Below, in pieces: positions 34,858 to 58,728 of a stretch of 64,000 nucleotides of DNA. Every line of letters starts with the position of its first letter. The stretch's first letter is position 1. The stretch comes from Hydrogenovibrio thermophilus. GTDB taxonomy: Bacteria; Pseudomonadota; Gammaproteobacteria; Thiomicrospirales; Thiomicrospiraceae. Location: positions 1,488,001-1,552,000 of the forward strand of contig NZ_CP035033.1 in the NCBI RefSeq assembly GCF_004028275.1, in the 5' to 3' direction. Under the pieces are notes generated by a model that did no database searches, was not told the DNA's origin, and worked only from the letters and a program-made list of their open reading frames with translations. A program made the position numbers and the translations under genes.

Positions 34858-37563
34858 ATGCCCCAGAAGAACCTGATTATCCCCACCCTGTTTTCCTTAC
34901 TGATTCTATCGCTTTTGCTGGTGAGCATTCACTTCTATACCGAAAAGCGCACAGAAGAAGTCACCCGAGAAAAATACGAAAACAAAGCCCTGGAAGTCCA
35001 AAACCTAGTGGATACGCTGATTCAAGGCCAAAAGGACAAGATGACGTTCATCGCACTTTCCTTAGCGCAGGACTCCCAACTCAAAGACGCCTTATTGAAT
35101 CAAAACACGCAGCTTTCTTATCAAGATTACTTGAAAACACTTTCGCAACACTCTGATTTAAAAAACCTTTGGCTGCATATCGTCGACAATACCGGCCACA
35201 GTTTCTACCGTAGCTGGACGGATAAACGCGGCGATAACATTCTGGAAAAGCGCCGTGATTTGCAAAAAATGCTACAGGAACCGACGGTTATTGAAACCAT
35301 CAGCACCGGCATTTTCGATATGACCTTCAAATCCAGCGTACCGATTTACGACAATGACCGTTTTATCGGTGTTTTCGAAGTCATCGGCAAATTCAATTCC
35401 ATTGTCGAAAAGCTCAAAAGCCGTCACATCGAAAGCGTTTTGCTGGCCGATAAACACTACCGGGACCAAATCAAATTTCCGTTTTCCAAACGCTTCCTCA
35501 ATGACTACTACTTGGTTAACGGCCAAGCACAGACGGCTCACCTTCAAGAAATCCTCGACCATAATCTACTGACGTACAGCCAATCCCACCATTACTACAT
35601 CGACACCGCCGACCAGCAGCTAATCAGTTTCTTTAAGTTGCCTAATATCGACGGCGAACCAATGGGACATTTCTTCTTTTTCTACCCGCTGGATTTGATT
35701 GATGTCAGCTCACAGCAGCTGAAGCCGTTCAACCTTTATATCTATACGATTCTGGTTTACCTGTTCCTGCTCGGCGGCTATTTCTACTGGGCCAATAAAA
35801 ACCGTACCCGTGAAATATTCGAATTCAACCGCCACCTGTCGAAAACGGTAGACCAAAAAACGCAACAACTGTCCACCCAGAAATACTTCCTGCAAAACGT
35901 TATCGATGGTGTGTCCGACGCCGTCACAGTGTACGATAGAACCCTTTCGACCTCCCTGATGAACCATGCGGCTCGTGCCCTCCCCGAACTGAAACTCAGT
36001 CAACATCTGCTGAATAACCGTGACACCGTTACCATTCAAGACAACGAGCCGCCCGCTTTAAAACTGGCGGCCCAAAGCTTTGAATCCGGCCGCTCGCAAA
36101 AAACGGTTTTGCATTATCTTGACCCTCAACTGAAAAAACATTATGTCGAACTGACCACCACGCCCATTAAAAACAGTCGACACGAGGTGACCTCCGTCAT
36201 TCAATTGGGGCACGAAATCACCAACTACCTGGACATTCAGGAGCAATTACAGCAACAGAAAAACGACCTGGATTTCATCGCCTACCACGACCCTTTGACC
36301 GACTTGCCGAACCGCATTTTGTTCTTGGACCGATTGAATCAAGCCATCAACCAGGCACAGCGCAATAACGAAAAAATCGCCTTGTTGTTCATTGACCTGG
36401 ACCGTTTCAAGGAAATCAATGATTCGTTCGGCCACAACAGCGGTGATGAAGTATTGATTGTCTGCGCCGAACGCCTGCAAAGCTGTATTCGCAAAATCGA
36501 TACCGTGGCCCGCCTCGGTGGCGACGAATTCACCATCCTGCTCGATGCTCTAAAGAGCAATAACGTCATCATTAACATCGTCGAGAAAATCATCAACCAC
36601 TTGTCGGCCCCGATTTACCTTGGTGACGACGTCTTCCACGTCACCGCCAGTATCGGTATCAGCCTCTTCCCGAACGATGGTCAAAACGCCGAACAGTTGC
36701 TCAAAAATGCCGACGCCGCCATGTATAAAGCCAAAGACGATGGAAAGAACACCTATCACTTCTACACCAAAGAAATGACCGAACAGGCTTTCGAACGTAT
36801 CTTCATGGAAAACAATCTTCGTGAAGCCCTCAACCGTAACGAATTCGAAATGTATTATCAGCCGCAATACGACTCCAACACCAACGAAATCGTCGGATTC
36901 GAAGCCCTGGTACGCTGGAACCACCCGGAACGAGGCCTGATTCCGCCGCAACAATTCATTCCTGTGGCCGAAGAAACCGGCCTGATTGTGCCACTCGGCC
37001 GTCAAATCATCGACATGGCCACAACGGCCATTGCCGAATGGCAACGCAGCGGCTTGACGAAAGCCAGAATGGCCATCAACGTGTCCGCCAAACAATTGCG
37101 AGACGCCAGCTTTACCCAAACGCTCAGCGCCATTTTGGATAAGAACCAATGTCTGCCCGAATGGCTGGAATTGGAAATCACCGAAAGTTCGGTCATGAAG
37201 AACACGGAACACACCATCAAGCTGTTGCATCAAATCCGCCGCCGCGGCATCACCATTTCCATCGATGATTTCGGCACCGGCTATTCCTCCTTGGCCTACC
37301 TGAAAAAGCTACCGATCAATAAGGTGAAAATCGACCGTTCTTTCATCTGCAACCTGCCGGAAGACAAGGATGATGCGGAAATCACCAAGGCCATCATCTC
37401 CATGAGCCAGAGCTTGAATTTGGATATTATTGCGGAAGGAATTGAAACCGACGAACAGCGAGCATTCGTCAATTCGGAAGGCTGCTATATGATTCAGGGC
37501 TACTTATACAGCAAACCCGTCACTTACGATGACATGACCGCCAAATTGAAAGGCGAGGCTTAA
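34858..37563 (+). CDS. Membrane-bound diguanylate cyclase/phosphodiesterase (GGDEF-EAL)
   Basis: A 901-residue cyclic-di-GMP enzyme. A transmembrane helix (about 5-25), a periplasmic sensor domain of Cache-like size (26-280), a second helix (about 285-305), a PAS-like region (about 345-465), then GGDEF and EAL domains. The GGDEF motif is intact (residues 552-557) with an RxxD inhibitory site (RKID) five residues before it. EAL is intact near residue 682 (FEALVRW), with the later NVSAKQL and DDFGTGYSSL motifs, so both activities are possible. The EAxxE-type motifs look complete. Ligand unknown. Confidence 0.92.
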   Translation: MPQKNLIIPTLFSLLILSLLLVSIHFYTEKRTEEVTREKYENKALEVQNLVDTLIQGQKDKMTFIALSLAQDSQLKDALLNQNTQLSYQDYLKTLSQHSDLKNLWLHIVDNTGHSFYRSWTDKRGDNILEKRRDLQKMLQEPTVIETISTGIFDMTFKSSVPIYDNDRFIGVFEVIGKFNSIVEKLKSRHIESVLLADKHYRDQIKFPFSKRFLNDYYLVNGQAQTAHLQEILDHNLLTYSQSHHYYIDTADQQLISFFKLPNIDGEPMGHFFFFYPLDLIDVSSQQLKPFNLYIYTILVYLFLLGGYFYWANKNRTREIFEFNRHLSKTVDQKTQQLSTQKYFLQNVIDGVSDAVTVYDRTLSTSLMNHAARALPELKLSQHLLNNRDTVTIQDNEPPALKLAAQSFESGRSQKTVLHYLDPQLKKHYVELTTTPIKNSRHEVTSVIQLGHEITNYLDIQEQLQQQKNDLDFIAYHDPLTDLPNRILFLDRLNQAINQAQRNNEKIALLFIDLDRFKEINDSFGHNSGDEVLIVCAERLQSCIRKIDTVARLGGDEFTILLDALKSNNVIINIVEKIINHLSAPIYLGDDVFHVTASIGISLFPNDGQNAEQLLKNADAAMYKAKDDGKNTYHFYTKEMTEQAFERIFMENNLREALNRNEFEMYYQPQYDSNTNEIVGFEALVRWNHPERGLIPPQQFIPVAEETGLIVPLGRQIIDMATTAIAEWQRSGLTKARMAINVSAKQLRDASFTQTLSAILDKNQCLPEWLELEITESSVMKNTEHTIKLLHQIRRRGITISIDDFGTGYSSLAYLKKLPINKVKIDRSFICNLPEDKDDAEITKAIISMSQSLNLDIIAEGIETDEQRAFVNSEGCYMIQGYLYSKPVTYDDMTAKLKGEA

Positions 37564-58124: not shown

Positions 58125-58178
58125 CTGAAAACTTAATAAAAAAATTTTAATTTCAACAACTTAACTAACTTTTAATTC

Positions 58179-58194
58179 TGGCACGCTTCTTGTA
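58179..58194 (+). promoter_or_regulatory. Sigma-54 type promoter
   Basis: TGGCACG at the -24 position, four bases, then TTGTA at -12; only one base differs from TGGCACG-N4-TTGCA. It is about 75 bases before the start of the CheZ-like gene. Confidence 0.65.
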
Positions 58195-58269
58195 ATAGTT
58201 CTGTTTGAATAAAACCAACAGGCGTTAAAACGTCAACAAATTGACAATCAAACACTGGGGAACATCATT

Positions 58270-58728
58270 ATGGCGAGTAAAATGAATACATCACAAAAAG
58301 TCAGCACCTGTTTGGATTACATTGATCGACGCTTGGAAACCACGTCCGAACAGACCATCCAGATTGCAGAAATGATTATTAACGACATCAAAGAATTGAC
58401 CGCCGCTTATCCAGAAGCCTTGAAGAACAATCGTTTAAGAGAGCACGCCGAGCGCGTCCGCACCACGCAGATGAAATGGGTTAATCAATTGCACGACATT
58501 ATTTTGGAACAAACCAATCGAGATTTGAACGGTCAAGTGATTCAGGCGTTACAAAACTTCATCAACACCATGAATAAAAAACAGTTGAAGCACCTGGATT
58601 TCGACATGCCCAGCGCCGTCAAGCGTGAACAGCCTGAACACGAACATGAATATCTAACACAAGAACAGATCGAAGCCTTAATGGCCTCCGACATCAAACA
58701 ACTGCCGGTGTCGTCCACGCACCATTAA
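58270..58728 (+). CDS. CheZ-like protein phosphatase of chemotaxis
   Basis: A 152-residue, mainly helical protein. The segment QTNRDLNGQVIQALQNFINT resembles the catalytic helix of CheZ, in which Asp and Gln of DLTGQ act on phospho-CheY. The C-terminal tail LTQEQIEALMASD resembles the CheY-binding peptides of FliM and CheZ. It is shorter than E. coli CheZ (214). It stands alone behind a sigma-54 type promoter. The function is inferred from these two motifs; a structural match is needed. Confidence 0.6.
   Translation: MASKMNTSQKVSTCLDYIDRRLETTSEQTIQIAEMIINDIKELTAAYPEALKNNRLREHAERVRTTQMKWVNQLHDIILEQTNRDLNGQVIQALQNFINTMNKKQLKHLDFDMPSAVKREQPEHEHEYLTQEQIEALMASDIKQLPVSSTHH

Follow-up and report, generated by a model that had tools for sequence, protein, structure and literature searches.

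Does a gammaproteobacterium that already encodes a full-length CheZ carry a second, much smaller one for its flagellar motor? The question is raised by a 152-residue open reading frame (ORF; P0001), here called mini-CheZ, which runs from ATG to TAA at 58270..58728 on the forward strand of a window of Hydrogenovibrio thermophilus DNA. The window is the whole 64,000-nucleotide stretch that was analyzed (C1:1488001-1552000 of a genome in one contig of 2.61 Mb), and all features below are on the same strand. An initial annotation, made from the letters alone, had described the ORF as an orphan and as a miniature CheZ-like phosphatase with a FliM-like tail. Its boundaries were exact, and both strings that it quoted, DLNGQVIQAL (with D85 and Q89) and LTQEQIEALMASD (starting at residue 129), are in the protein. 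In gammaproteobacteria, a single CheZ is generally held responsible for ending the signal at the flagellar motor, a task that falls elsewhere to the CheC/CheX/FliY family. We report that the mini-CheZ ORF is a genuine and conserved gene with kinship to CheZ. We propose, judging the case evenly poised, that it may encode a phosphatase of phosphorylated CheY (CheY-P) that combines a CheZ hairpin with a FliM-like docking tail.

Relationship to CheZ

A profile search against CheZ, as the initial annotation had suggested, found a relation. The Pfam CheZ profile (PF04344) matched residues 49-141 of mini-CheZ with E=2.2e-6 and 28.2 bits, and it matched 17 of 22 orthologues at E<=0.01 when each was scanned singly. 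The NCBIfam CheZ model gave 23.5 bits, far under its cut-off of 257. When whole genomes were scanned for CheZ at E<=0.001, the mini form was flagged in 9 of the 23 genomes that carry it; since a few unrelated long frames scored 4e-4 to 8e-4 in the same scan, single matches near E 0.001 are weak.

Profiles were then compared with profiles using hhalign, with 22 mini-CheZ orthologues (A1) set against 26 canonical CheZ proteins (A2). Both hairpin helices were aligned over residues 12-103 of mini-CheZ (E=1.7e-5, probability 78.5%), with CLDYIDRRLETTSEQTIQIAE of helix 1 paired with canonical RLEYVIQATEEASNKTLSAAE and DLNGQV paired with DLTGQV. A local rerun with other settings gave a score of 25.8 (probability 35%, E=7e-5). 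As controls, 100 column shuffles of A2 that kept position modulo 7 reached a mean score of 2.4 and a maximum of 10.0, and the reversed A2 alignment scored 2.6. The best match of the A1 profile among PDB sequences was E. coli CheZ (1kmi_Z, E=0.023), and this alignment keeps the register of the catalytic helix. In a search of 274 genomes of the class, the A1 profile at E<=0.001 retrieved its own gene and two others, both of which are canonical CheZ adjoining a CheY-like ORF. These comparisons show homology of mini-CheZ to CheZ across the full hairpin, in agreement with the earlier idea of a shortened CheZ. Mini-CheZ most likely arose from the CheZ lineage and most likely also works in the manner of that lineage.

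A fold search with the model of the mini-CheZ monomer returned generic helical matches and no CheZ among the matches listed. Because the model of the genome's own canonical CheZ, used as a positive control, likewise had no CheZ among its 50 matches listed, this negative is uninformative. The sole matches in a PDB search with the single sequence were clostridial neurotoxin chains (E>=0.6), which we judged to be chance coil matches.

The initial annotation had also raised the question of another full-length cheZ. One is present at C1:910 kb; it encodes 216 residues (from an ATG start) and sits between an adjoining ORF of CheY size with a receiver domain and CheA (Hpt, HATPase and CheW domains). 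Mini-CheZ is therefore a second CheZ in this genome, and its gene, unlike canonical cheZ, does not adjoin cheY. Since several features that define CheZ are missing from it, as described below, we regard it as a variant of the CheZ kind and not as CheZ itself. In a set of 55 relatives that includes the genome itself, CheZ scored above the Pfam cut-off in all 23 genomes with the mini form, although the match in one (G022) spans profile positions 74-202 only. The sole genome of the family without a CheZ match (G015) is also missing the mini form. Two cheZ genes in one genome, as here, are known from Laribacter hongkongensis (cheZ1 and cheZ2; PMC3180692). Each of these lies within a che cluster with cheY and cheA, unlike mini-CheZ, and the alignments listed for them, of 244 and 248 columns, suggest two full-length proteins. 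Among the open-access papers listed by literature searches, we saw none on a lone mini-CheZ that bears a FliM-like tail.

Helical hairpin and catalytic pair

AlphaFold models were used to compare the architecture of the two proteins. The mini-CheZ monomer is predicted to form a hairpin of helices 7-52 (58288..58425) and 56-104 (58435..58581), after which come a linker and a short helix near the C-terminus (131-142). The mean predicted local distance difference test score (pLDDT) of this model is 66.8, with blocks past residue 100 at 37-58, and the chain ends are of low confidence. The hhalign result supports both hairpin helices: helix 1 aligned with its counterpart in canonical CheZ, the first of that hairpin (CLDYI...TSEQTIQIAE versus RLEYV...ASNKTLSAAE), and helix 2 bears the CheZ-type catalytic stretch. 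The model of canonical CheZ (pLDDT 69.9) has helices 6-17 and 21-59, a hairpin of 61-109 and 113-163, and a C-terminal helix 204-213. A helical hairpin, D..Q on its second helix, a linker and a C-terminal helix are thus common to CheZ (PF04344; 1kmi) and mini-CheZ. In the models, however, the helices ahead of the canonical hairpin are absent from mini-CheZ, whose hairpin starts at residue 7, and the linker appears shorter. The stretch from the conserved L-D/E-Y of helix 1 to the catalytic Asp is about 11 residues longer than in canonical CheZ.

The DXXXQ phosphatase motif of CheZ is present in mini-CheZ as D85-L-N-G-Q89 (58522..58536), although the T of the CheZ DLTGQ is not. The pair aligned with D137 and Q141 of the genome's own canonical CheZ and with 1kmi_Z; we take the E. 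coli equivalents to be D143 and Q147. D85 and Q89 (i, i+4) lie on one face of the helix, a placement that the initial annotation had made a test of its reading, and by a helical-wheel estimate they are turned off its hydrophobic face. The angles from the hydrophobic direction are 124-144 degrees for D85 and 84-104 degrees for Q89, compared with 168-180 and 136-152 degrees for the canonical pair. By this estimate, the D/Q face of mini-CheZ is similar to the canonical one but rotated.

A FliM-like C-terminal tail

The CheZ-type C-terminal CheY-binding helix (QDxVDDLLxxLGF/I) is not in mini-CheZ, which has LTQEQIEALMASD there instead. This tail contains LTQEQIEALM (residues 129-138; 58654..58683), mostly in the predicted helix 131-142, which is of low confidence. 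FliM of the same genome starts with MDDILSQDEVDALLKGM and the core of its N-terminal peptide is LSQDEVDALL. The two ten-residue peptides are identical at 4 of 10 positions, with the remainder mostly conservative. In mini-CheZ the peptide follows a CheZ hairpin on its C-terminal side, and the protein has no FliM or SPOA domains.

The resemblance was ranked against 71,071 14-mers from the ORFs of the window and of nine other 20-kb stretches of the genome. The tail 14-mer YLTQEQIEALMASD was 5th in likeness to FliM N-terminal peptides (score 25.6), with FliM 1st, the tail of canonical CheZ 2nd and two other peptides before the mini tail. In a second comparison, each of the 30 mini tails that fit the tail pattern of the family scored higher with the FliM core than with 30 CheZ tails (mean BLOSUM62 score of 29.1 versus 18.5). 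The FliM-like tail of the initial annotation is thus borne out as a resemblance in sequence. The face of CheY used for binding is common to CheZ and FliM (PMC3774744).

Conservation among relatives

The description of the ORF as an orphan fails at the family level. Of the 62 genomes sampled from the order, 42 carry mini-CheZ, in one copy each and all within one family, and the named records encoding orthologues belong to Hydrogenovibrio, Thiomicrospira and Thiomicrorhabdus. Conservation was counted over 40 distinct sequences. Positions 85 and 89 read D/Q in 30 of them, E/Q in 4, D/E in 3, and S/Q, V/E and D/Y in 1 each; Q89 is substituted in 5, D85 in 6, and both in one. The tail pattern is likewise present in 30 of the 40. 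C14, D39, A50, W70, L74 and P114 are invariant in all 40, and all lie within residues 1-114 (58270-58611); they may mark a surface for a partner.

The tail and the catalytic pair tend to occur together. D/Q is present in 28 of the 30 orthologues with the tail and in 2 of the 10 without it (Fisher p=2e-5, by rows); the tail motif is missing in 10, exact D/Q in 10, and both in 8. A trait tree was built from 39 rows using the hairpin minus residues 85 and 89, with the very divergent L026 omitted. On this tree the tail and D/Q each change 5 times. Three independent pairs fall on well-supported branches, where on average 2 to 3 of the 3 show a joint change of the two traits and none shows an opposite one. 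The pattern fits a linked function of docking plus catalysis that may be decaying in some lineages. It also shows that mini-CheZ can persist without the tail or without the D/Q pair. Five sequences of one genus (L011, L012, L013, L020 and L021) keep the hairpin and lack the FliM-like tail pattern, and three of them have E in the place of D85.

Upstream region

Two motifs precede the gene. A sigma54-like promoter, CTGGCACGCTTCTTGTAATA, without C at -12, lies at 58178..58197, and a palindrome resembling a FleQ box, GTCAACAAATTGACA, at 58232..58246, 34 nt past the 20-nt promoter motif. Conservation was examined in 38 orthologous upstream regions of at least 150 nt (2 more were too short), which are related, some nearly identical, and were counted separately. 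NTGGYA-N6-TTG is present in 30 of the 38, and all 30 read YTGGCAY. The relaxed form of the box, GTCA-N6-TGWCR, is present in 24, and both motifs together in 23. In 7,600 first-order shuffles, the sigma54-like motif occurred in 0.9%, the box in 0.2% and both in 0. The gap from promoter to box is 33-34 nt in 18 of the 23, 23-24 nt in 4 and 45 nt in 1. These classes are steps of about one helical turn and place the box two to four helical turns after the promoter. The sigma54-like motif is missing from 8 regions, namely those of L023 and L026 and six from genus g6.

It is the conservation of the promoter motif that counts as evidence. A lone sigma54-like site does not, since TGGCACNNNNNTTG taken by itself has 40 occurrences genome-wide, compared with 22 for the reversed pattern. 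There are 2 exact GTCAANNNNTTGACA sites in the 2.61 Mb, one upstream of mini-CheZ and the other within a cheV-like ORF; a genome scan with TTGGCAC fixed found 0 sites, the mini-CheZ site itself starting CTGGCAC. The sigma54 consensus is given as TGGCACG-N4-TTGCW (PMC6424431). The base at -12 in the 30 motifs is A in 23, T in 4 and G in 3, usually with ATA next, as in TTGATATA. Unlike this promoter, those of flgB, flgF and fliE in the H. thermophilus genome have C at -12.

According to the title of a 2002 paper by Jyot et al., FleQ binds either upstream of RpoN sites or, atypically, downstream of them. The FleQ box consists of GTCAAT and ATTGAC with two bases between (PMC10723142), and the putative site at mini-CheZ, GTCAACAAATTGAC, agrees at 11 of the 12 specified positions. 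A looser version of this layout is found at a flagellar rod gene of the FlgE/F/G family (by Pfam), which we read as flgF: it has TTGGCACGGCAAGTGCTACT and, 24 nt later, GTCGGAAATTTGACG, which passes only a looser pattern. The genome also encodes a FleQ homologue, whose best PDB match is FleQ (E=5e-113); a histidine kinase and an NtrC-type regulator are encoded next to it, downstream. The combination of a sigma54-like site and a FleQ-like box suggests that mini-CheZ may be under flagellar-regulon control. The FleQ homologue itself (L172:8018-9124; G000:C1:1628017-1629123) has 368 residues from the first start codon and starts at the sigma54-interaction domain. The N-terminal domain found in FleQ of P. 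aeruginosa is apparently missing from it; the alignment with PDB FleQ begins at chain residue 143.

Proposed function and alternatives

We propose that mini-CheZ is a diverged and trimmed paralogue of CheZ that has kept the hairpin and the D85/Q89 pair and lost the N-terminal helices, with a FliM-like peptide taking the place of the CheZ-type C-terminal peptide. It would most likely be expressed alongside the flagellar genes through RpoN plus FleQ. The helical hairpin forms the dimer in CheZ, and we infer a similar dimer here. The tail would dock on the FliM/CheZ-binding face of CheY-P, and the hairpin would insert Gln89 and hydrolyze the phosphoryl group, giving the cell a second CheY-P eraser next to canonical CheZ. 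The reading of docking plus catalysis is based on the homology, on the register of D/Q with canonical CheZ and 1kmi_Z, and on the conserved tail pattern. Further support comes from the joint occurrence of the tail and D/Q by rows (28/30 versus 2/10), from the co-occurrence of CheZ and the mini form (23/23, with neither in G015), and from the conserved layout of sigma54-like site and FleQ-like box (23/38, looser at the rod gene) in a genome with a FleQ homologue.

A number of observations weigh against this proposal. The PF04344 score misses the curated Pfam cut-off of 30.7 bits, and the A1 profile at E<=0.001 reached CheZ in only 2 of the 274 genomes and did not find the canonical CheZ of its own genome. 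The AXXF(Y)Q motif just ahead of DXXXQ is described as conserved in proteobacterial CheZ (PMC7750401), and these positions read EQTNR in mini-CheZ. When tails are scored as 14-mers, that of canonical CheZ (29.4) is closer to FliM than the mini tail is (25.6), and FliM and CheZ tails are inherently similar, 8 of 10 core residues being common to the two in this genome. The link between the tail and D/Q, corrected for the tree, has 3 independent pairs, too few for significance, and both D85/Q89 and the tail are less constrained than the six invariant residues. With respect to regulation, the -24 element and spacing of sigma54 are present in 30 of 38 regions, and the C at -12 of the consensus (PMC6424431) in 0 of those 30; no such box was found within 120 nt of the flgB, fliE and fliD sites, 3 of the 4 flagellar sites checked. 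Mini-CheZ lies outside any recognizable chemotaxis cluster, and it was not found in 10 CheZ-bearing members of the family within the relatives set, so that it is dispensable.

Three other explanations are to be considered with these observations. Since 10 of 40 orthologues are without the tail and 10 are without exact D/Q, mini-CheZ could be a CheZ paralogue that is mainly non-catalytic, which we consider on the whole unlikely but worth serious attention. It would pair with canonical CheZ hairpins or occupy CheY-P or another partner, contacting it through the conserved C14, D39, W70 and P114 and tuning CheZ or the switch, with D/Q kept in most lineages but optional. The invariant residues do fall outside the catalytic pair, genes persist despite replacement of Q89 or D85, and a full-length or nearly full CheZ match accompanies every mini form in the relatives set; on the other hand, D..Q is intact in most orthologues and loosely tied to the tail, and the invariant residues may be merely structural. 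Mini-CheZ could also be a phosphatase for another receiver, such as the CheV protein encoded at 7.4 kb of the window (CheW plus receiver domains), a second CheV-like protein or another stand-alone receiver. The genome has 41 receiver-domain matches, with at least three stand-alone receivers besides the cheY adjoining cheZ, changed residues around the catalytic pair could signal a different partner, and in one genome (G031) mini-CheZ is one gene from a cheV orthologue. The presence of CheV-1 (orthologues defined by at least 53% identity), however, does not track mini-CheZ over the 62 genomes: 37 of the 42 that carry mini-CheZ have CheV-1, as do 16 of the 20 that do not (Fisher p=0.45). The tail, moreover, resembles a CheY-binding peptide. 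CheV as a dedicated partner is thus not supported, so that of the initial interpretation the shortened CheZ and the tail resemblance stand and CheV as target lacks support, and we regard a different receiver as improbable. We give very little credence to the last explanation, in which the hairpin resembles CheZ by convergence without any kinship. It could draw on the sub-threshold PF04344 score, on the absence of CheZ among the fold-search matches listed, and on weak matches from other helical families; GIT1_C, for example, also matches 9 of the 22 orthologues, a caution that coil-like matches arise. Yet the fold search was blind to canonical CheZ as well, and convergence is opposed by the shuffle-controlled profile-profile score, the alignment of the whole hairpin and the matches of the family profile to CheZ.

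Returning to the proposed CheY-P phosphatase, its location may be considered. Canonical CheZ acts on free CheY (PMC7184735), and this together with the FliM-like tail leads to a more specific idea, which we hold as doubtful. In Hydrogenovibrio and its Thiomicrorhabdus and Thiomicrospira relatives, mini-CheZ might be a separate CheY-P eraser, controlled with the motor regulon, at or near the switch, where it would intercept CheY-P through a FliM-type contact. FliY bears a FliM-like docking peptide. In Bacillus and Thermotoga FliY is a CheY-P hydrolase located at the switch (PMC6946799); the concept would be the same, with a CheZ-like catalytic unit in mini-CheZ instead. If true, mini-CheZ would be a CheZ-fold counterpart of FliY, one cell would have two CheY-P erasers of the same fold with different docking logic, and an eraser at the switch would be under FleQ, and possibly cyclic di-GMP, control. 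More generally, mini-CheZ may provide the flagellar motor with one more brake, and it would link CheY-P removal to the FleQ/RpoN flagellar cascade and not to the chemotaxis operon. In a conserved second CheZ that is reduced to a minimum and fitted with a FliM-like docking peptide, phosphatase hairpin and peptide would look like modules that can be exchanged, and such a protein would also offer a natural minimal CheZ without the N-terminal helices for mechanistic work.

Genomic surroundings

The neighborhood of mini-CheZ was examined with up to 6 ORFs per side in 17 stretches (18 were tried; none was found in L077, G016). Homologues of an rluA-like pseudouridine synthase and of a CxxCxxCC protein are near mini-CheZ in 14 and 15 of the 17, respectively. 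No chemotaxis gene was recognized in these stretches, in which unlabelled ORFs were not profile-scanned, except for the cheV orthologue of G031. A possible Shine-Dalgarno sequence, GGGGA, can be read at 58257..58261 of the window. In G031 (L075, G031:C1:1525500-1545400), one ORF separates mini-CheZ from the cheV orthologue, and in the window cheV is about 50 kb away. This intervening ORF encodes 842 residues and resembles the protein encoded at 34858-37563 of the window.
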